From positions 1-64,000 of the forward strand of contig NZ_JABAHY010000001.1 of assembly GCF_012641515.1 (NCBI RefSeq): a DNA stretch of 64,000 nt. The letters are read 5' to 3'. Numbering within the stretch: position 1 is the stretch's first letter; every line of letters begins with the position of its first letter. The position numbers and the translations under genes are program-made. The stretch comes from Nesterenkonia sedimenti (GTDB taxonomy: Bacteria > Actinomycetota > Actinomycetes > Actinomycetales > Micrococcaceae). The notes under the pieces are model-generated. The model had not been told where the DNA came from, did no database searches, and saw only the letters and a list, made by a program, of their open reading frames with translations. Below are positions 40,878-50,939 of the stretch, piece after piece.

Positions 40878-43800
40878 ATGAACCTGCTGAGCCTGGTCCA
40901 CCAGGGCCTCACCGTACAAGTCCTGCACCAGGACTCGTTCAACTACGCCCTGGAGCATAACCGGGTTCCGGTACTGAGTTCCGTACAACTCCGTGCAGAG
41001 GAAACGGCCGGAACCGAAACCCTGGATCTTGCCCTGCGGCTGAGCATCGCTCCGGTGGGTCCAGTAGAGGTGGCGCAGGCCCTGGAGATTCCGCTGCCTT
41101 CGGTTCCCGCCGGGGAAGAGGCGGTACTACCTGCTCGGCAGATCAGCTGGAACCTAGAACACGCAGCGTTCCTGACCATCACAGAGACAGCCAGCACGAC
41201 CCTGCGCGCTGAGCTGGTGGACCGCAGCCAGGAATCCCGGCTGTCTACCGGGACCGCAGCGGTGCGTGTGCTGCCAGCAGAGTTATGGTCACCGGAGGGC
41301 ATCCGGGAATCATTGGCGGCCTATATCCGCCCCCGAGATCCGATCATCGAGGAACTGCTCACCGAAGCCAGTGCTGCTCTGACTGAGCACACCGGATCCG
41401 GGGAGATGCCCGGCTATGCCGGCGGACCCGAGCGTGTGGAGCTCACCGCACGGGGTATCTACCACGCCCTGGCCATGCGGGGGCTGGCGGCTTCCCCCTC
41501 TGCGACTGATCACCAGCAGCGGATCCGGAGCCATACCGATGTTCTGAAGACTCGGCAGGCCAGCAGTCTTGAGGCCGCCTGTCTCTTTGCCGCGGCATTG
41601 AGCCGTGCAGGCCTGCATGCCGTGGTGGCGGTAACCGGCAGGCATGCCCTGGTGGGCTGGCTGGCCGAACACAGCCACCTCAGCACCACTGTTGTGGACC
41701 AGCCGAATGTGATCGCCACCCTGGCTGATTCAGAGCTGCTGGAAGTCATCGAGGTCACCGGCATGACCACTACCAACCAGGGCAGCGATTTCGATATGGC
41801 TGGCTCCCAGGCCGCCCGGTGGTGGACCAGCTACGAGCAGGAGGGGCTCTGGCTCCTGGATGTTGCCGCCGCCCACCGTCGCATCCGGCCGCTGCCAAAC
41901 CTGCGATTCGACGGGGAGACGCTCGTGGTTGAGACCGTCCAGGAAGGCAATCACCACAGGTGGCGATCATCCCCACCAGGGTCCAAGGCGTCTGCCCACC
42001 CCACCAGCTCCCCTTCGATCCAGACGGCCGAAGCCCGGAAGGCTCCAGCACGGATCGAACAGTGGCGGCGAGCGCTGCTGGACCTCAGCTACCGCAACCC
42101 GCTGCTGCGTCTGGCGAAGTCCAGCTCTGCGCCCCTGCATGTACCGGCTGGGTCACTGAACGCGCTGATGGAACAACTGGTCGCAGGCAACAAGTTCGAG
42201 CTGAGCGAGCACGGGGATATCGAACAGATCCACCAGGCCCAGGGAGCCCGTACTGCGGCGGATGTGGACCCTGAGACACTGAGCCGAATCCTGATCGAAG
42301 AGCGTCGAATCTTCGCGATCCTGGGATTCAGCGAGTTCGAGAAGCGGCTGCGCTCCCTCCAACGGCGGGCGAACACCACTGCCGAGGAGACCGGCGCCCA
42401 TCCGCTCTACTGCGCCATCGGAGCCCTGCGCTGGGAGGACCGCGGAGGAAAACGCGGCGGACACGCACCCCTGTTCTTGGTTCCGGTAACTCTCACCGGT
42501 GGGCGACGCTCACCTTTCCGGGTCGAGTATGACGATTCCCGGGAGATTGTGCCCAATATCAGTGCCCTGGAGAAGCTGCGCACCGATATGGGCCTAACCC
42601 TTCAGGCACTGGCTGATCCGCCGCGGACATCCGAAGGGCTGATTGATCTCCACACGGCACTGAGCGGGATCCGCCGGAGTCTGCTGAAAGAGCGGGCCGA
42701 GCAGATCACCGTGGAGGAGACCGCCCACCTGGCACTGCTGCAGTTCTCCACCCTGGATCTTTGGCGGGATCTCAGTGAGCATTGGGAAGTCTTTATGCGC
42801 CGGGACCATATCCGGCACCTGGTGGAGACCCCCGGAGCGCAGTTCGACGACGGGGTGGGCTCCCCGGAGCCGGTGCCGGAGGAGGAGGCGACCCTGCACC
42901 TTCCGGTGCCAGCCGATGCCTCCCAGATACGGGCGGTCTCCTGGGCTGCGGCAGGAAAGAGTTTCATCCTCGAAGGCCCACCAGGAACCGGAAAATCCCA
43001 AACCATCACCAACCTCATCGCGGAGAACCTCGCCCGCGGGAAGAAAGTCCTCTTTGTGGCCGAGAAACAGGTGGCCCTGGATGTGGTCCAGCGCCGCCTG
43101 GAAGAAGTTGGGCTCGCAGATTTCTGTCTGGACCTGCATGGGAAGAACCAGTCGGTCAGCGCAGTCCGGGCCCAGATCCGTGCCGCCCTGGAGGCCAACC
43201 CAGCCCCTGAGGTGGCCTTCGAAACCACGAGGGCTCGGCTACGCAATGCCGTGGAGTATTTAGCCCGCTATCCGCAGGCGCTGCATAGTGCCGGACCGGC
43301 CGGCCTCAGCGCCTGGCAGGCCCGGCAACTGGTACTCGAACTGGCAGAATATGAGGACACCGTAGACCCCGACGACGACCCCCTGGTGCTGACCCCAGAA
43401 CAAGCGCCGAGACTGGGAGCCCTGGAGGAAGCCTGTTCCCGGGCCGCTGAGGTCGACCGGGACCTGCTGCAACTTCAGGCACCGATAGCTGAGCACCCCT
43501 GGGCCCTGGCAGAACCTGCTGCAACGACTGCCCTAGATCAGCATCGCAGCCAGTTCAGCGCCATCCTGACCGCCACACTGGAGGCTGAGCACGGCACCGA
43601 TGGCAGCCCTGCCCATGCACTGATGGATCTCGCTCTCACCGTAGAGCAGACCGATGCGGTCATCACCTGGTTGGAATCACTGGTGTCCGGGTTCCGGACT
43701 AGTGCCTTCGGCCTGGACCTGCCTTCCTTGATCACCCAGGCTAAGGACATCGACCAGCGGTGGTTTCCCATCGGGCGGGGCAGGTCACGGCGGAAGCTGC

Positions 43801-46205
43801 TGCGTGGAATAGAGGAACATCTCACTGGCCCCGAAGCCCTAGCGGTGGAGGAGCTGACCTCACGTCTGGAGGCGCTGAGCCAACTGAAGGCTCAATGGGA
43901 GCGTCTGCACCTGGTGTTCGCCGAAGAATCACCCAGCACCCGGGAACAGGTGGCGGCCCTGATAGCTGAGATCTACCGCGATGGTAGCCCGATCTCCTAT
44001 CCTGCTGAGTCATTGCGCCAACGGGCCACGGCCTGGACCTCAATGCTCGAGCTACTGGGCGCTACCAGTAGGAGTCTGCACCGGTGGGCCGGGACGCAAA
44101 GCCGAAAGGAGGCCATCGATCGCTGCGCAGCAGCCTGGTCGGCAGATCTCAACACGGGGATGACATCCCTGGACCGTTGGGCCCAGGTCAGTGCAGGACT
44201 GGACTGGCTGCACCGACATGGTCTGGAGAACTGGGTACGTGCCCTGCAGCAGGAGCGACTTTTGCCCGGTGATCTCGAACCCAGCCTGCGGCAAGCGCTC
44301 ACGGATGCCTCTCTAGCCGAACGGTTGGAGTCGACGGGCTCGGTGCGCTTTGATGAGACTCGGCACCTGCGGCGAATCGAGCAGTTCGGCTCAGCCTCTT
44401 CGGCCCATCGGGAATTGCTGAGCCGGCAGCTGCCAGCCGATCTGGTGGCCTCACGCAGCTTTGACCCCCATGCGTCATTGGGGCGGGTGGGCCAGCTGCG
44501 CACCCAGGCCGGTCGGCGGCGGGGCGGACTGAGTATCCGGGGCCTATTCGAACATTTCGGCAGTCTCATCACCGAGGCTGCCCCCTGCCTGCTGATGAGC
44601 CCTGACTCAGTGGCTCGTTTCCTGCCGCCAGAGTCTGTGGAAGTTGACCTGGTGGTCTTTGATGAGGCTTCTCAGATTCGAGTGCCGGAGGCCATCCGGG
44701 CCATGGGGCGGGCAAAGTCTGTGGTCATTGTCGGTGACACCAAGCAGATGCCGCCCAGTTCCACCTTCTCGGCCCGCACGGCAGATGAGGCCAGTGGTGC
44801 AGGCGATGAGCTGCCAGTACCTGCGGATATGGACTCCATCCTTTCGGAGGCCGCTGAAGCAGGCTTCCCCAGGCAGTGGCTGAGCTGGCATTACCGCTCC
44901 CGGGATGAGTCGCTGATTGCCTTCTCGAATCAGCAGTACTACGAGGACCGGCTCTCGACATTTCCGGCTCCGCCGCAGGCTGAGGGCAGTTCGGCAGTGC
45001 AGCTGCGGCATATTGGGGGCCTCTGGGAAGGTGGCCGAGGTGGCGCAAGGGTCAACCGGGCCGAGGCCGAGGCAGTTGTTGCCGAGGTGGACCAACTTCT
45101 CCAAGAACAGCCTGAGCGGAGCATCGGGGTTGTTACGTTCAACATCCAGCAGCGGGACCTCATCCTGGACCTCCTTGAGGAGCACCCATCATCGGCTGTC
45201 AGAGAGGCGCTGATGCGGGATGAGGATCCAGTCTTTGTGAAGAACCTGGAGAATGTGCAGGGTGATGAGCGCGATGTCATTCTCTTCACGCTGGCTATCT
45301 CGGCTGATGAGCGCGGGCGTGTCCCGCTGAACTTCGGTGCCCTCAGTGGGGCAGGGGGAGAGCGGCGGCTCAATGTTGCGATCACCCGTGCCCGGGAGCA
45401 GGTGATCATCTTCACCTCCTTCCGCCCCCAGCAGCTGGATGTCTCAACCTCGGCCTCTCAGGGATTACATGATCTGCGGGAGTACCTCCTCACCGCTGAG
45501 TACGGCACAGCTCAGTTGGGCAGCGGCTCAGCGCAGACCAGTTTGGACCGCCACTCGGAGACAGTTGCCACGGCACTGGAGGCGGCAGGACTTGAGGTGC
45601 GCCGCCGGGTTGGGCTTTCGGATTTCACGGTGGATCTGGCCGTCCGCAGTGGGCCTGAACGGCCATGGGTGGCAGTACTGCTGGATGGGCCTCTGTGGGC
45701 AGCGCGCGGCACCGTCGGTGACCGGGAGCTGCTGCCTTCTGTGATCTTGCAGGGGTTGATGTCCTGGGCAGCCGTGGAACGGGTTTGGCTGCCGGCGTGG
45801 CTGAAAGATCCCGAGCTCGTGGTGGAGCGTATCTGCCGTGTGGCTGCTGGTGCGGATCAACCCCGTGACTCGGAGGATCAACCAGGCGCTGAGGAGAGCA
45901 ACCGGGCTACCCAGCCTCAGGCTGACAGGGGAGCCGGGGCATCAAGTGGGCCTGCGCCGATTCAGGTGCAGCAGCAGCATGTTGCTGATGCTCCGATTGA
46001 TGAGCTGCTGGGGGTTTTCGTCGAGGTGATCCGGCGTGCCCATGGGGCGCCCCGGGATGAGGCTCAGCGTGAGGTGGCCCGACTGTACGGGCACCAGAAG
46101 ATGGGATCACGGATATCGGCGCGGATGCAGGAGGTCACTGACCTGGCTCTGTCCCAGGGGCAGATTCAGGAGCAGGATGGTCTGCTCACTGCTGTGGGGG
46201 AGTAG
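40878..46205 (+). CDS. giant DUF4011-type SF1 helicase with C-terminal nuclease and DUF3320 domains
   Basis: A 1775-aa protein. Residues 1-380 are a beta-rich region plus a transglutaminase-like segment (SSLEAACLFAAALSRAGLHA). DUF4011 starts near 390 (IEQWRRALLDLSYRNPLLRL). The Upf1-like SF1 helicase has Walker A GPPGTGKSQTITNL near 700, Walker B LVVFDEASQIRVPEA near 1257, WLSWHYRSRDESLI, and motif VI RRLNVAITRAREQV near 1496. A Vsr/DUF559-like PD-(D/E)xK domain follows near 1555-1650 (DFTVDLAVRSG, WVAVLLDGPLW). A DUF3320 segment lies near 1705-1770. COG1112 proteins of this layout are found in bacterial defence and repair loci, but the substrate is unknown. It stands alone, with no modification gene beside it. 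Confidence 0.9.
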   Translation: MNLLSLVHQGLTVQVLHQDSFNYALEHNRVPVLSSVQLRAEETAGTETLDLALRLSIAPVGPVEVAQALEIPLPSVPAGEEAVLPARQISWNLEHAAFLTITETASTTLRAELVDRSQESRLSTGTAAVRVLPAELWSPEGIRESLAAYIRPRDPIIEELLTEASAALTEHTGSGEMPGYAGGPERVELTARGIYHALAMRGLAASPSATDHQQRIRSHTDVLKTRQASSLEAACLFAAALSRAGLHAVVAVTGRHALVGWLAEHSHLSTTVVDQPNVIATLADSELLEVIEVTGMTTTNQGSDFDMAGSQAARWWTSYEQEGLWLLDVAAAHRRIRPLPNLRFDGETLVVETVQEGNHHRWRSSPPGSKASAHPTSSPSIQTAEARKAPARIEQWRRALLDLSYRNPLLRLAKSSSAPLHVPAGSLNALMEQLVAGNKFELSEHGDIEQIHQAQGARTAADVDPETLSRILIEERRIFAILGFSEFEKRLRSLQRRANTTAEETGAHPLYCAIGALRWEDRGGKRGGHAPLFLVPVTLTGGRRSPFRVEYDDSREIVPNISALEKLRTDMGLTLQALADPPRTSEGLIDLHTALSGIRRSLLKERAEQITVEETAHLALLQFSTLDLWRDLSEHWEVFMRRDHIRHLVETPGAQFDDGVGSPEPVPEEEATLHLPVPADASQIRAVSWAAAGKSFILEGPPGTGKSQTITNLIAENLARGKKVLFVAEKQVALDVVQRRLEEVGLADFCLDLHGKNQSVSAVRAQIRAALEANPAPEVAFETTRARLRNAVEYLARYPQALHSAGPAGLSAWQARQLVLELAEYEDTVDPDDDPLVLTPEQAPRLGALEEACSRAAEVDRDLLQLQAPIAEHPWALAEPAATTALDQHRSQFSAILTATLEAEHGTDGSPAHALMDLALTVEQTDAVITWLESLVSGFRTSAFGLDLPSLITQAKDIDQRWFPIGRGRSRRKLLRGIEEHLTGPEALAVEELTSRLEALSQLKAQWERLHLVFAEESPSTREQVAALIAEIYRDGSPISYPAESLRQRATAWTSMLELLGATSRSLHRWAGTQSRKEAIDRCAAAWSADLNTGMTSLDRWAQVSAGLDWLHRHGLENWVRALQQERLLPGDLEPSLRQALTDASLAERLESTGSVRFDETRHLRRIEQFGSASSAHRELLSRQLPADLVASRSFDPHASLGRVGQLRTQAGRRRGGLSIRGLFEHFGSLITEAAPCLLMSPDSVARFLPPESVEVDLVVFDEASQIRVPEAIRAMGRAKSVVIVGDTKQMPPSSTFSARTADEASGAGDELPVPADMDSILSEAAEAGFPRQWLSWHYRSRDESLIAFSNQQYYEDRLSTFPAPPQAEGSSAVQLRHIGGLWEGGRGGARVNRAEAEAVVAEVDQLLQEQPERSIGVVTFNIQQRDLILDLLEEHPSSAVREALMRDEDPVFVKNLENVQGDERDVILFTLAISADERGRVPLNFGALSGAGGERRLNVAITRAREQVIIFTSFRPQQLDVSTSASQGLHDLREYLLTAEYGTAQLGSGSAQTSLDRHSETVATALEAAGLEVRRRVGLSDFTVDLAVRSGPERPWVAVLLDGPLWAARGTVGDRELLPSVILQGLMSWAAVERVWLPAWLKDPELVVERICRVAAGADQPRDSEDQPGAEESNRATQPQADRGAGASSGPAPIQVQQQHVADAPIDELLGVFVEVIRRAHGAPRDEAQREVARLYGHQKMGSRISARMQEVTDLALSQGQIQEQDGLLTAVGE

Positions 46206-46208
46206 GGC

Positions 46209-48335
46209 TTAGAACAGTGCCGGCTGAGCCGGGGTGGCAAATGCCTCCAGAGTCGGTTGGTGGACAGCCTCGTTAGGGGCATCTGCCTGTTCGGGGGAGG
46301 TGCGTCCGCGCCAGGTGAAGTCCTCACGTTTGATGAACCCATGGCGTCGTCGAGCCTGGGCCGCCTGCTGTCCGAGCCATTTCTTGTACTCGGCAGAGGC
46401 ATAGGTGGTGAACTGGCCGTTCTTGCCGCGGTAAAGCCGACGATACTTCGGCACCAGTTTCGGGAACTCCGCCTGCAGCCATTGCATGAACCATTCCCGG
46501 GCACCGGGACGCAGATGCAGCGCGCCGGTGGAGACCCAGCTGGCCCCAGCTTCAGCGAGGGCACCGTGCAGGGAGTCCAGGTGTGTGGCGGAGTCGGTCA
46601 GCCACGGCAGGATCGGCATCGCCAGGACATTACACTCCAGCCCGGCATCGGTGATGGCCTTGATGAGGCTCAGCCTGGCCCGCGAATCAGGAGTTCCTGG
46701 TTCCACCATCTGCTGCAGCTCGGTGTCCATAATCGCCAGGGACACCGCCACTGAGACCGGGACTTTCTTCGCGGCCTCCTTCAGCAGGGGTAGGTCACGT
46801 TTCAGCAGGGGGCCCTTGGTCAGGATCGAAAACGGAGTCCCGGAGTCAGCCAGGGCCTGAATAATCCCCGGCATCAGGCGGTAGCGGCCTTCTGCTCGCT
46901 GATAGGGGTCGGTATTGGTCCCAAGGGCTACATGCTCGTGGCCCCAACTGGGTTTGGCCAGCTCCGCGCGGAGTACATCTGCGACATTGGTCTTGACCAC
47001 GATCTGTGAATCGAAGTCCTTCCCCGCGTCCAAGTCCAAATACTCATGCGTCTTCCTCGCAAAGCAGTTGTGACTGATAACGCCGTTAGCAATGAAATCG
47101 CCTGTTCCAGTGGTGATATCAACCAGACTCTGCTCCTGGCCGAGCGCCTCGACGCTTGACACTTTCAAGTTGCTGAAGGTCTTGACTGCACGACCAGCCA
47201 TCTTCAGTTTGCGTGATATGGCTGGATTGACGAGGTGAAAAAATCGTCGGTAACTGGTGGCCCCTCCAGTGACTCGGACCGAGGCAACGCCCTTGTCATT
47301 GGCAGGTTCGCGTATATGCGGAATATCGAGGCTCTTCAGAGCGGCCTCTGTGTGCTGCAGAATCTCCTCATCGGAATTGCTCACTCTCAAGGCGCTGCCG
47401 CTGAACGAGCCCTCCGCGTCAAAGATGCCAGCGAGGAAGCCGGCTTCCCATTCGTCGGCCACGGAAGTAGGCCATGAGATGAGTTGGAGTATGCGCGCGT
47501 AATTATCTCGCGTGGAGGTGACGATCATATTCATTGGCTTACGCGAGGCTCGGCCGGTGACGAACGGCTTAAGCGAAGTATGGACGTTCTCCTGTGTCAA
47601 ATACTCCTGTGTTCGCGTTAACGCATCTGAATCAGTGAGAGCCAGGCGAAAGATCGTCACACGATAGGGCTTACCGTTCGACTTCCGGTCGTATGTGCGA
47701 TCAATGAGCATCCCATCGCCGCGGATCATCCCCGTGAGATAACCGCGGCGATATTGGGCGCTGGGTGCTGGATATTGGTACTTTTCGGTGGCGCATCCCA
47801 AGCCGAAGCCCATGAGGGAATTGTTGGTTGTCAGGTATGGGCGTTGGCCTTCTCCTGGGGCCGGAGGGGCAACATGCTTCCATCCGCGTTCGGTCAGGAA
47901 TCGGTGATTACCGCTTGCGATCAGTTCAGTGCCATCCTCGAGTGTGACTCGGTAAGCAGGCTTACGAGTCCTCCAGACGACGTTGACTTCGGTTTCTGTG
48001 TAATAGCGATATCGGCCCGAAAGATGGGTGCCGATGATCTTGTCGCCCACCCGGATTTCATCCAGACGACGCTGTCGGCCGTCAGCCATCATGATCAACG
48101 TGTCCGGACTCAGGCAATAACGACACTGGTGGAGACAGCCGCGCATGGGGTTGATGGTCCACCGGAACGGCATATTGGACTGACTGGGCACCTTATTCAG
48201 CGCGGTCTTCGCTGCCACCTCATGGAAGGTCACACCATCAAACTCAGGGGTCTGCACCGAGCGCACCAGCCCAGCCATCGGCAGCAGCGCCGGGCCGGCG
48301 ACGTCGTCGTGAAGTTTCTGGGTCTCCCAGCGCAT
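46209..48335 (-). CDS. Rv2578c-family radical SAM protein, intein-containing precursor
   Basis: A 708-aa precursor. The extein is a radical SAM protein of the Rv2578c type: RWETQKLHDDVAG at the start, AGLVRSVQTPEFDGVTFHE, NPMRGCLHQCRYC with the [4Fe-4S] cysteines, then FARKTHEYLDLDAG, VALGTNTDPYQRAEG and TGALHLRPGAREWFMQWL. An intein splits the cluster motif directly before its third Cys. After splicing, the mature protein would be about 358 aa and regain CLHQCRYCFAR. The reaction catalysed is not known. Start 48335 (MRWETQ) is chosen from the family N-terminus. The frame is open 37 codons further into a LysR gene. Confidence 0.92.
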   Translation of the reverse strand: MRWETQKLHDDVAGPALLPMAGLVRSVQTPEFDGVTFHEVAAKTALNKVPSQSNMPFRWTINPMRGCLHQCRYCLSPDTLIMMADGRQRRLDEIRVGDKIIGTHLSGRYRYYTETEVNVVWRTRKPAYRVTLEDGTELIASGNHRFLTERGWKHVAPPAPGEGQRPYLTTNNSLMGFGLGCATEKYQYPAPSAQYRRGYLTGMIRGDGMLIDRTYDRKSNGKPYRVTIFRLALTDSDALTRTQEYLTQENVHTSLKPFVTGRASRKPMNMIVTSTRDNYARILQLISWPTSVADEWEAGFLAGIFDAEGSFSGSALRVSNSDEEILQHTEAALKSLDIPHIREPANDKGVASVRVTGGATSYRRFFHLVNPAISRKLKMAGRAVKTFSNLKVSSVEALGQEQSLVDITTGTGDFIANGVISHNCFARKTHEYLDLDAGKDFDSQIVVKTNVADVLRAELAKPSWGHEHVALGTNTDPYQRAEGRYRLMPGIIQALADSGTPFSILTKGPLLKRDLPLLKEAAKKVPVSVAVSLAIMDTELQQMVEPGTPDSRARLSLIKAITDAGLECNVLAMPILPWLTDSATHLDSLHGALAEAGASWVSTGALHLRPGAREWFMQWLQAEFPKLVPKYRRLYRGKNGQFTTYASAEYKKWLGQQAAQARRRHGFIKREDFTWRGRTSPEQADAPNEAVHQPTLEAFATPAQPALF
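47067..48116 (-). other. 350-aa LAGLIDADG intein in the radical SAM Fe-S motif
   Basis: The intein runs from Cys1 (CLSPDTLIMMADG, block A) to the terminal HN (GDFIANGVISHN, blocks F/G). The next extein residue is Cys+1. The Hint blocks include ELIASGNHRFLTERGWK (block B His). In the middle are two LAGLIDADG dodecapeptides, YLTGMIRGDGML and FLAGIFDAEGSF, with acidic residues intact, so the homing endonuclease may be active. All splice-junction residues are present (Cys1, His-Asn, Cys+1). Sampled G+C is slightly below that of the extein. Confidence 0.94.
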
Positions 48336-48366
48336 ACACCTATTCGAACACACATTCGAAAAGGCT

Positions 48367-49296
48367 TCAAGGATTGAGGAGGCCAGCCTCCTGAGCCAAA
48401 CGCTCCAGGGTCTCCATGGCAGTAGCCACCGGGGGAGTGCTGCCACTGTCCTTGCGGATATGGGCGACCACCCGGCGTTGAATCCTGGGATTCACCAGCG
48501 GGCGGACCGCCACCCCGGCAGGAGCATCCAGGGCAGCTAAGCGTGTCAGCACCGTAATGCCGGCCCCAGCCTCCACTAGGCCAAGAGCCGCATAGTGATC
48601 ATCCAACTTAGCCATCACCCGAGGAGTGAATCCGGCAGCCCGGCAGGCGCTGCGAATAATCCGCGTTACCGGGGAGTCGTAGATGTCCTGATCGATCCAG
48701 GGCAGATCACGCAGATCATGCACTGAGGTCGCCTCAGCCTCGGCCAATGGGTGCCCTGCAGGCAGCACCACCTCGAAATCCTCAATCCCCAGCGGGTGGC
48801 GGAGATAGCCGGGGAAATGCTGCTCCGGCTCCTCGAGGCTCTCCTGCTGGACGTCAATGTCCACCGGTCGCGATGCCGCAGGTGCCTCCGATTCGTTCAG
48901 ACTGATCTCAAAGGTCAACCCGGGGTCCTGCGCGCGCACGGCGGTGACCACATCCGGCAACCAGTGCTTAGCGGCCGAGGAGAACGTGCTGATGGTCAGC
49001 TGACGGTCCCGACCCTCGCGGAGGTCGGTCACCACCCGATCCAGACGGTCCAACCCGGCCAGGGCCTCCCCGGCCTGCTCAGAGAGGTGGACCGCAGCAG
49101 GGGTCGGGGCTAAGCCGCGGCCACTGCGGGTAAAGAGTTCCAATCCAGTTTCCCGGGCCAGTTCGGCCATATGCTGACTGACTGTCGCCGGTGAATAATG
49201 CAGATTCCGCGCTGCCCCATGGATGGACCCAGCAGTCAGAACAGCACGCAGAACGCGCAGCCGATGTGGGTTGATCACTACGGGTCTCACAATCAT
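48367..49296 (-). CDS. LysR-family transcriptional regulator
   Basis: A 309-aa LysR regulator. The winged-helix N-terminus is RLRVLRAVLTAGSIHGAARN, with recognition helix SPATVSQHMAELARETG. A periplasmic-binding-like effector domain starts near residue 95 (QLTISTFSSAAKHWLP). It is divergent from a LysE-family exporter with 71 bp between them, so it probably regulates that gene, as ArgP/LysG regulate LysE. The ligand may be an amino acid. It lies 31 bp upstream of the radical SAM gene on the same strand. Confidence 0.9.
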   Translation of the reverse strand: MIVRPVVINPHRLRVLRAVLTAGSIHGAARNLHYSPATVSQHMAELARETGLELFTRSGRGLAPTPAAVHLSEQAGEALAGLDRLDRVVTDLREGRDRQLTISTFSSAAKHWLPDVVTAVRAQDPGLTFEISLNESEAPAASRPVDIDVQQESLEEPEQHFPGYLRHPLGIEDFEVVLPAGHPLAEAEATSVHDLRDLPWIDQDIYDSPVTRIIRSACRAAGFTPRVMAKLDDHYAALGLVEAGAGITVLTRLAALDAPAGVAVRPLVNPRIQRRVVAHIRKDSGSTPPVATAMETLERLAQEAGLLNP

Positions 49297-49367
49297 TCGG
49301 GAATACCTGACGATTGTTCGATTCTATGTGCTTGTGCCAAGTTGTCTTCGGGCACCAAGATATTCGG

Positions 49368-50075
49368 GTGACTCTTGCGACCTATTTCGGCCTGCTCGCC
49401 GTAGCAGCTGTCCTGGCCGTGACACCCGGGCCCGACACTATGCTCTCGCTGCGTTATGCCCTGAGGTCCCGCCGGGCCGGCCTCGGTGCAGCCACCGGAT
49501 CCTCAGCCGCAGCCTTCATCTGGGCCGCATTGGCCGCAGTAGGGCTGGCCGCACTCTTCGAAGCATCACCACTGGCCTATGAGCTGCTCAGCGTCGTCGG
49601 GGGTCTCTATCTGCTCTTCCTGGGGACGCGAGCCGTCCTCAGCGCCCGCACCCGCATCGCCACTATGGCAACTGTCGCCACAGAGCCGGTCTCCGGGGCT
49701 GCCGGATCGCAGCCGCCGTCGTCCCCGGTGGCGACCCTGACGGTACCCAAGGCGAGGGTGGGTTTTCTGGCGGGTATGGCCACCTGCATGACAAACCCCA
49801 AGGTGGGGCTGTTCTTCCTCGCGCTGTTCCCGCAGTTCACCCCCACAGATGCCTCACTGATCTTCACCATCGGGGTGCTGGGTGGAACCGTGGCCGCCAC
49901 GATGTATCTGTACCTGATTGCGGTAGTGCTGCTGGTCGATGCCGCCAACCGGTGGCTCTCCAGCCCCAAGGCCACCTCCTGGATCGAAGGAATCAGCGGC
50001 GCAACCCTGATCGGACTGGGAATCTTCATGCTCGGCAGCGGAGGCCTCGGCCTGCTGACCCTCTGGGGCGGATAA
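49368..50075 (+). CDS. LysE-family amino acid exporter
   Basis: A 235-aa membrane protein with about six transmembrane segments of the LysE/RhtB family. The signature AVLAVTPGPDTMLSLRYALRS lies near residue 12, GLYLLFLGTRAVL near 80, and FLAGMATCMTNPKVGLFFLALFP-type sequence near 125-147. A Ser/Thr/Pro-rich loop of about 35 residues sits between segments 3 and 4. GTG 49368 gives the family N-terminus. ATG 49326 in the same frame is an alternative. Confidence 0.88.
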   Translation: MTLATYFGLLAVAAVLAVTPGPDTMLSLRYALRSRRAGLGAATGSSAAAFIWAALAAVGLAALFEASPLAYELLSVVGGLYLLFLGTRAVLSARTRIATMATVATEPVSGAAGSQPPSSPVATLTVPKARVGFLAGMATCMTNPKVGLFFLALFPQFTPTDASLIFTIGVLGGTVAATMYLYLIAVVLLVDAANRWLSSPKATSWIEGISGATLIGLGIFMLGSGGLGLLTLWGG

Positions 50076-50090
50076 GACTACTCTGGTGCC

Positions 50091-50939
50091 ATGCCGGAGC
50101 TTCCAGAAGTGCATGCGCTCGCGGGGGATCTCGAATCCCGACTGCGGGGACTCAGCGTGCAGCGGCTGGATGTGCTGGCATTCCATGCCCTGAAGACCTT
50201 TGATCCACCACCCACAGCCCTGACTGGACAGACCGTTGAGCAGGTGGGCAGGCACGGCAAATTCCTCGACCTGCAGATCGGCAATCTGCACCTGATCATC
50301 CACCTGGCCCTGGCCGGATGGATCCGTTGGCGCGATCAGGCACCGACCTCCATGCCCTCACGCAAGAGCCCGATTGCCGCACGACTGGTCACCGAGAACG
50401 GATCAGGAATCGACATCACCGAGGCAGGCACCCGCAAAGGCCTTGCCCTCCACATCGTCACCGAGCCCTCTGAAGTTCCCGGTATCGCAGATCTGGGTCC
50501 CGATGCCCTAGATGTCACCGAAGCTCAGTTCAGCCAGATCCTTCAGGCCGCGGGGCGCTCGCCGATCAAGAAAGTGCTGCGAAAACAATCGGTCATCGCT
50601 GGGATCGGCAATGCCTACTCCGATGAGATCCTCCACCGCGCCAAGATGTCACCCTTCCAGCCGGCGGCCATGAAGCCCGACGACGCCGCCGCGCTCTACA
50701 CCGCGATGCGCCAGAGTCTCCAGGAGGCGCTGACCAGGGCTGAAGGCCAGGCCGCCAGCGAGCTGAAGAAGGAGAAGAAGTCCGGACTTCGCGTCCACGG
50801 TCGGTTCGGTGAGCCCTGTCCCGAATGCGGTGACACCATCAAACAGGTCGTCTACAGCGACTCCAGCTTCCAATACTGCCCAGGGTGTCAGAACAACGGG
50901 AAGGCATTCTCTGACCGCGGGATTGACCGTCTGCTATAG
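50091..50939 (+). CDS. Fpg/Nei-family DNA glycosylase
   Basis: A 282-aa bifunctional glycosylase/AP lyase. The N-terminal PELPEV supplies the catalytic Pro and Glu. The H2TH domain includes SPIKKVLRKQSVIAGIGNAYSDEILH near residues 157-185. The C-terminal zinc finger is CPECG...YCPGCQ (C-x2-C-x16-C-x2-C). It removes oxidised bases. The Lys-rich region before the finger (ELKKEKKSGLRVHGR) differs from housekeeping MutM, so a Nei-type or MutM2-type substrate range is possible. It starts 15 nt after the LysE gene. Confidence 0.9.
   Translation: MPELPEVHALAGDLESRLRGLSVQRLDVLAFHALKTFDPPPTALTGQTVEQVGRHGKFLDLQIGNLHLIIHLALAGWIRWRDQAPTSMPSRKSPIAARLVTENGSGIDITEAGTRKGLALHIVTEPSEVPGIADLGPDALDVTEAQFSQILQAAGRSPIKKVLRKQSVIAGIGNAYSDEILHRAKMSPFQPAAMKPDDAAALYTAMRQSLQEALTRAEGQAASELKKEKKSGLRVHGRFGEPCPECGDTIKQVVYSDSSFQYCPGCQNNGKAFSDRGIDRLL

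Follow-up and report, generated by a model that had tools for sequence, protein, structure and literature searches.

A putative homing intein before the third cluster cysteine of an Rv2578c-family radical SAM protein in Nesterenkonia sedimenti

It is debated whether inteins are purely selfish or can also serve as sensors, and this question lies behind the interest of a site in Nesterenkonia sedimenti at which an intein interrupts the CxxxCxxC cluster motif of a radical SAM protein. The locus belongs to a window of 64,000 nucleotides (the whole stretch of DNA analysed here). A previous interpretation of this window from its letters (hereafter, the sequence-only reading) had proposed an intein directly before the third cysteine of the motif, a precursor unable to form its cluster, and splicing that may respond to redox or metal state. 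Here we ask why the intein occupies this position, and whether the position makes it a switch. The gene and its parts are as follows.

46209..48335, minus strand: gene of the intein-bearing precursor, an Rv2578c-family radical SAM protein of 708 aa, with the stop codon inside the coordinates (NF038136, NF038135)
48117..48335, minus strand: N-extein, 73 aa, ending in GCLHQCRY (junction reading)
47067..48116, minus strand: intein of 350 aa running from Cys1 to Asn350, which contains the LAGLIDADG endonuclease domain (profiles and junctions)
46212..47066, minus strand: C-extein, 285 aa, starting with CFARKTHEYL (junction reading)
48135..48137, minus strand: Cys -7, which opens CxxxCxxC (conserved in 40/40 aligned precursors)
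48123..48125, minus strand: Cys -3, second Cys of CxxxCxxC and candidate disulfide partner of Cys1 (Cys in 40/40)
48114..48116, minus strand: intein Cys1, predicted splicing nucleophile, which supplies the last Cys of CxxxCxxC before splicing
47904..47906, minus strand: His at intein residue 71, which we take to be the block B His (invariant in 40/40)
47211..47753, minus strand: homing endonuclease domain, about residues 122-302 (stretch absent from mini-inteins of 168 and 172 aa)
47712..47744, minus strand: LAGLIDADG motif 1, GYLTGMIRGDG, acidic residue kept
47409..47441, minus strand: LAGLIDADG motif 2, GFLAGIFDAEG, acidic residue kept
47067..47072, minus strand: His-Asn, the last two residues of the intein
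47064..47066, minus strand: Cys +1, predicted to act as the second nucleophile in splicing and then to be the third cluster Cys once the protein is spliced (conserved in 40/40)

The reading frame (46209-48446, minus strand, 745 aa) is open upstream of the likely start, the ATG at 48335 (ORF residue 38), where the family model begins and which would give the protein of 708 aa, with the intein at residues 74-423. The junctions (marked by slashes) read GCLHQCRY/CLSPDT and ANGVISHN/CFARKTH, and excision of the intein in silico leaves an uninterrupted sequence as in relatives with an empty site, e.g., L017 (GCLHQCRYCFARKTHEYLDL). The boundaries previously given for the intein, 47067 and 48116, proved exact to the base when the junctions were set against the empty relatives, and the placement directly before the third cysteine was borne out as well. 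The precursor scores 781.3 bits (cutoff 700) against NF038136, the NCBI model of intein-containing Rv2578c family radical SAM proteins, and 497 bits against NF038135. The window protein thus belongs to a named family and its intein is a known kind of mobile element, in agreement with the earlier statement that inteins occur in this host family; host family and intein-bearing form are the same and the match runs end to end, a likeness taken from the name of the model and the scores. Pfam matches were obtained for Intein_splicing (36.1 bits; cutoff 35.8), LAGLIDADG_3 (39.8; 22.5) and Radical_SAM PF04055 (49.6; 29.5). Together these scores far exceed what chance would give. Cys1, the block B His, the terminal His-Asn and Cys +1 are the residues of a class 1 intein, and the two LAGLIDADG motifs are intact, as had been noted, and each keeps an acidic residue. 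The PF04055 match, together with CxxxCxxC after splicing, identifies the host as a radical SAM protein. The GC content of the intein (55.6%) is below that of the exteins (62.1 and 62.0%) and the window (63%), which is only a hint of transfer.

In our interpretation, the insert in this Rv2578c-family radical SAM gene is very probably a LAGLIDADG homing intein of class 1 (Cys1), self-splicing and sited by endonuclease targeting. Splicing is presumed to follow established intein chemistry, namely an acyl shift at Cys1, transfer to Cys +1, cyclisation of Asn350 and ligation of the exteins. The product would be an enzyme of 358 aa, whose third cluster cysteine is the former Cys +1. The dual role that the sequence-only reading gave to Cys +1, alongside Cys1 as the other splice residue, is supported. 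The conserved residues and the clean join suggest that the window copy splices. Conversely, the intein could be a relic that no longer splices, in a dead gene. Decay is seen among relatives: L091 (L091:3001-4116), the one copy with Ser1 among those read at the Rv2578c site, has its C-extein distributed across two frames, and L198 matches neither endonuclease motif. Nevertheless, the frame in the window is open, all of its splice residues are conserved, and the splicing domain appears to evolve under purifying selection wherever a pair was computable, so that we regard a relic as highly improbable. The dN/dS values were 0.11-0.15 for the splicing domain (computable in 6/10 pairs) and 0.12-0.25 for the endonuclease (3/10), most pairs being saturated in dS, where the ratio is of little use. 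Of the 124 full-length rows, a number that counts duplicates, 117 match both LAGLIDADG patterns; among the seven others, L097, L115 and L185 have lost an acidic residue, L150 and L191 keep it and deviate elsewhere, and L195 and L198 are shortened. The L091 intein is 84% identical to that of L076 despite its frame-split C-extein.

The position of the insert is probably explained by conservation in the host. Of the 33 positions that are invariant in the exteins, 11 fall within the 22 residues flanking the join, the maximum for any segment of this size, and the DNA core TGY...TAY/TGY TTY GC is common to 42 empty and 142 occupied alleles (90% level). As the join falls in the most conserved stretch of the host, an endonuclease that aims at conserved DNA would place the intein before the third cysteine. 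Inteins commonly aim in this way at sequence that their host is not free to alter.

The sequence-only reading had suggested comparing intein presence among close relatives, and the comparison reveals a patchy distribution. The host family was matched in 29 of 30 genomes of the genus, the window's own included, 28 of them above the cutoff. Fifteen of the 28 carry an intein at exactly the same codon (six full-length, 348-352 aa; nine mini-inteins, 158-188 aa), and 13 are empty. The nearest named relative of the window intein is that of Nesterenkonia alkaliphila (Micrococcaceae), 74% identical over the intein and short flanks. On the host tree of 27 rows, the fewest changes are seven for empty/occupied and nine for three states, and sister rows differ, for example L010 (empty) from L016 (full) and L028 (empty) from L029 (mini). 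The pattern fits gains, losses or both, and an old intein with repeated losses fits as well; homing, judged from anatomy, is likely. Conflict between intein and host trees, by which a recent transfer might be recognised, was not shown: the intein tree of 21 full-length rows does not reject a single Nesterenkonia clade (p-AU 0.378), and the extein tree shows this clade with support 100/99. L008, L012 and L014, whose hosts are very close, group together; two of them carry mini-inteins of 172 aa that share one deletion, and the third carries a full intein of 352 aa. This implies either two losses of the endonuclease domain at a single place or the replacement of a mini-intein by a full one.

We read 142 rows (135 distinct) of inteins in Rv2578c- or PA0069-like hosts, with a pattern that required both N-extein cysteines and H[NQ] followed by C/S/T at the C-junction, and left residue 1 free. 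The distinct inteins have Cys -3 in 135, Cys1 in 134, His-Asn in 135 and Cys +1 in 135, and all 18 distinct mini-inteins without endonuclease keep the Cys -3/Cys1 geometry. The count for Cys -3 is no independent evidence, because both the search pattern and the host enzyme demand this residue. The PA0069 cutoff was passed by three intein hosts (Salinisphaerales, Elusimicrobia and Salinivenus records, metagenome bins), and a Myxococcales host lies just below it (355.8 vs 360). Duplicates (L001, L142 and L162) were left out; L026, L166-L171, L176 and L199 did not match the pattern, and L194 runs off its contig. On later reading, L026 was empty, L176 and L405 had the same geometry and L199 was an intein in a DUF5131 protein; none of these was added to the 135, and L166 (E 1.2e-14) also stays outside. 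Strong matches to a six-row intein profile (E <= 1.1e-28) occurred in 24/396 genomes of the order and 37/396 of the phylum, the two samples overlapping, with G1038, G719, G970, G745 and G962 counted from the profile match and not from the junction. No relative of the Rv2578c intein was found in the viral contigs searched.

Two of the 37 phylum matches are inteins in other protein families, DUF5131 and QueE. Four radical SAM or radical SAM-like families (Rv2578c, PA0069, DUF5131 and QueE) carry homologous inteins before the third cysteine. The DUF5131 case, found by tblastn of plasmids, is on a plasmid of Streptomyces sp. P9-2B-2 (L201:2327-4171; 321 bits to DUF5131), with junctions GCDRVSKGCDN/CLAPET...CTHN/CYAL and an intein with 31% identity over its whole length. 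Further inteins before the third cysteine of DUF5131 (Gp37/Gp68) proteins occur in L365 and L199. These three are homologous to the window intein (29-31% identity over the whole intein) and share its place at the third cysteine, whereas the spacing of the host motif is CxxxxxxCxxC instead of CxxxCxxC. Inteins of this kind are rare in the samples covered. At least 80% of the DUF5131 precursor was covered in one of 382 plasmid records with a match and in 0/293 phage records, and the third cysteine was uninterrupted in 79 of 80 viral DUF5131 loci, the 80 kept from 317. Among 238 Streptomyces genomes, 38 of them with DUF5131 above the cutoff, no single match exceeded 1,227 nt (partial matches, e.g., in G1428, G1525 and G1593, were outside this reading), and the long spans of up to 1,227 nt were dismissed as inteins because 10/10 loci read uninterrupted at the site. 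The intein gene on the L201 plasmid adjoins TcmP.

The second case is a 7-carboxy-7-deazaguanine synthase, QueE (L406:922-2613, genome G757; intein and flanks at G757:C4:84261-85313; TIGR03365, 310 bits, cutoff 206), which has an intein before the third cluster cysteine with junctions GGCDYRCSW/SVTCNT...LSRN/CDSKF. The alignment of this intein with the A2 profile (100 bits) spans positions 1-360 of 371; the intein is homologous to the window intein and holds the same position, but it begins with Ser1 and has a penultimate Arg. G757 is the sole genome with a QueE intein among 39 of its family, the other strong matches there being about 30% identical. The motif GCDYRCSWC was unbroken in 27/28 viral QueE loci, which were found partly through the QueE junction peptide, and 0/31 phage and 0/148 plasmid records covered at least 80% of the precursor.

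Several other candidates were rejected. L200 (KX853510, virus Rctr197k) is annotated as radical SAM-like, but its intein ORF has only an SNF2-type match and no cluster motif; the annotation may stem from similarity of the intein to intein-bearing radical SAM proteins. The Pfam matches of L200 are SNF2 and Hint only. L202-L204 have no cluster motif at the junction; L203 comes after a terminase small subunit gene. Sixteen weak profile matches confined to the C-terminus yielded no cluster motif, six of them being unreadable; by junction, five resemble one another (CGGHSL), and both of those scanned match Pfam NRDD; another four share CFIL, the single one scanned being a class II ribonucleotide reductase; and one is a DNA polymerase A.

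What does the position mean for the precursor? The sequence-only reading held that the unspliced protein cannot form its cluster, and this is not literally so. The precursor reads C-LHQ-C-RY-C, a complete CxxxCxxC, because residue 1 of the intein is itself a cysteine in the place of the third one; after splicing the motif is complete again with a different third cysteine. The putative ligand set is thus present in both states, one of the precursor's ligands being the predicted splicing nucleophile. Positions -7, -3, 1 and +1 hold the only cysteines invariant in 40 precursors (the next columns reach 23/40 and 22/40). We found neither the complete motif of the precursor nor the DUF5131 and QueE homologues in the literature searched, which takes in few subscription papers; new here is that homologues of the intein occupy the third cysteine in PA0069, DUF5131 and QueE proteins. 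Within the same scope, nothing paired an intein with Rv2578c, and among the matches listed no title dealt with the window intein.

The complete motif raises the possibility of a metal or cluster gate, in which the precursor, with Cys1 as third ligand, would bind Fe-S, Fe or Zn, so that the nucleophile is buried and a loaded precursor cannot splice. The invariance of the three precursor cysteines (40/40) is consistent with this proposal, as are the published inhibition of inteins by divalent cations (in the portion of PMC4031507 available) and the N-extein His residues proposed as Fe ligands for the SufB intein of M. tuberculosis (in part of PMC8891592). However, the barrel of the host is interrupted in the precursor, which probably does not form the geometry of the SAM site, and the QueE intein has Ser1 in place of the third ligand. 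We therefore consider such a gate very unlikely.

The same residues could instead form a selected redox switch, in which an oxidant-driven Cys -3/Cys1 disulfide stops the first splicing step and release of the enzyme awaits conditions in which the cell can support a [4Fe-4S] cluster. The motif of the second cluster of MoaA also holds CxxC. MoaA is a radical SAM enzyme with a second [4Fe-4S] cluster (sections of PMC5352715), and a Cys -3/Cys1 disulfide controls the intein of P. abyssi MoaA (Callahan et al. 2011, as described in parts of PMC3922620 and PMC10663303), as well as an engineered Ssp DnaE intein (same parts). The window precursor shares with that of P. abyssi the N-extein Cys -3 and the catalytic Cys1, the residue pair of this redox trap, at CRY/C; the likeness concerns the residue pair only, as the P. 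abyssi protein is archaeal and of another radical SAM family, and its intein site could, in the fold, be either cluster motif. In M. smegmatis DnaBi1 (2018), the catalytic Cys enters a disulfide under H2O2 and precursor accumulates in the native host, yet this is a class 3 intein whose partner, Cys48, lies inside the intein and not in the extein (sections of PMC6195587). As a control, we used 80 weak profile matches in other hosts. Cys1 is present in 68; among these, Cys never occupies position -3 and occurs at -1 or -2 in two cases. This contrast, and the retention of the geometry in 18/18 mini-inteins, appear to favour a switch. Nevertheless, the control is narrow, because 51 of the 68 fall in one stretch that is presumably DnaB-like, leaving about eight sites behind the number. 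Moreover, it marks the site as special only through the motif of the host, since Cys -3 is a cluster ligand.

The geometry, being forced by the host motif (and by the search pattern), is no evidence of selection. Conservation of Cys1 was likewise dropped as evidence for a switch, Cys1 being common in control inteins (68/80). The trap is not required at a third-cysteine site, because the QueE intein has Ser1, and 13/28 congeners do without any intein. Two 2014 reviews, as far as their available text goes, saw no demonstrated physiological role for conditional splicing. We thus regard a selected redox switch as unlikely. The sensitivity to redox or metals proposed in the sequence-only reading remains plausible as chemistry, given the MoaA precedent, whereas none of the observations shows a selected switch. 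In the homing reading that we prefer, the endonuclease would target the most conserved coding stretch, the host motif would fix Cys -3, and Cys1 would complete CxxC. As a by-product of this site, the precursor may well be held unspliced by a Cys -3/Cys1 disulfide or a bound metal, and that such a hold operates in vitro we judge to fall only a little short of an even chance.

It is attractive to speculate that a single ancient lineage of inteins became a specialist for the third cysteine in cluster motifs of radical SAM proteins (Rv2578c, PA0069, DUF5131 and QueE) and that, where Cys1 is present, splicing and the loading of a cluster or oxidation preclude each other, so that the precursor would report the capacity to build clusters; we think this quite unlikely. 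Be that as it may, the site is a clean natural test of the sensor question: within one genus the enzyme occurs with an empty site, a mini-intein or a full intein, Cys -3 is indispensable to that enzyme, and Cys1 and Ser1 versions occur at equivalent sites in sister families.

The neighbourhood of the gene in the window can be described briefly. Just upstream lies a divergent pair, a LysR regulator (48367-49296, minus strand) and a LysE exporter (49314-50075, plus strand), after which comes an Fpg-type glycosylase (50091-50939). Convergent with the radical SAM gene is that of a 1,775-aa protein (40878-46205, plus strand) that contains DUF4011 and AAA helicase domains and ends in a REase_MTES_1575 domain.
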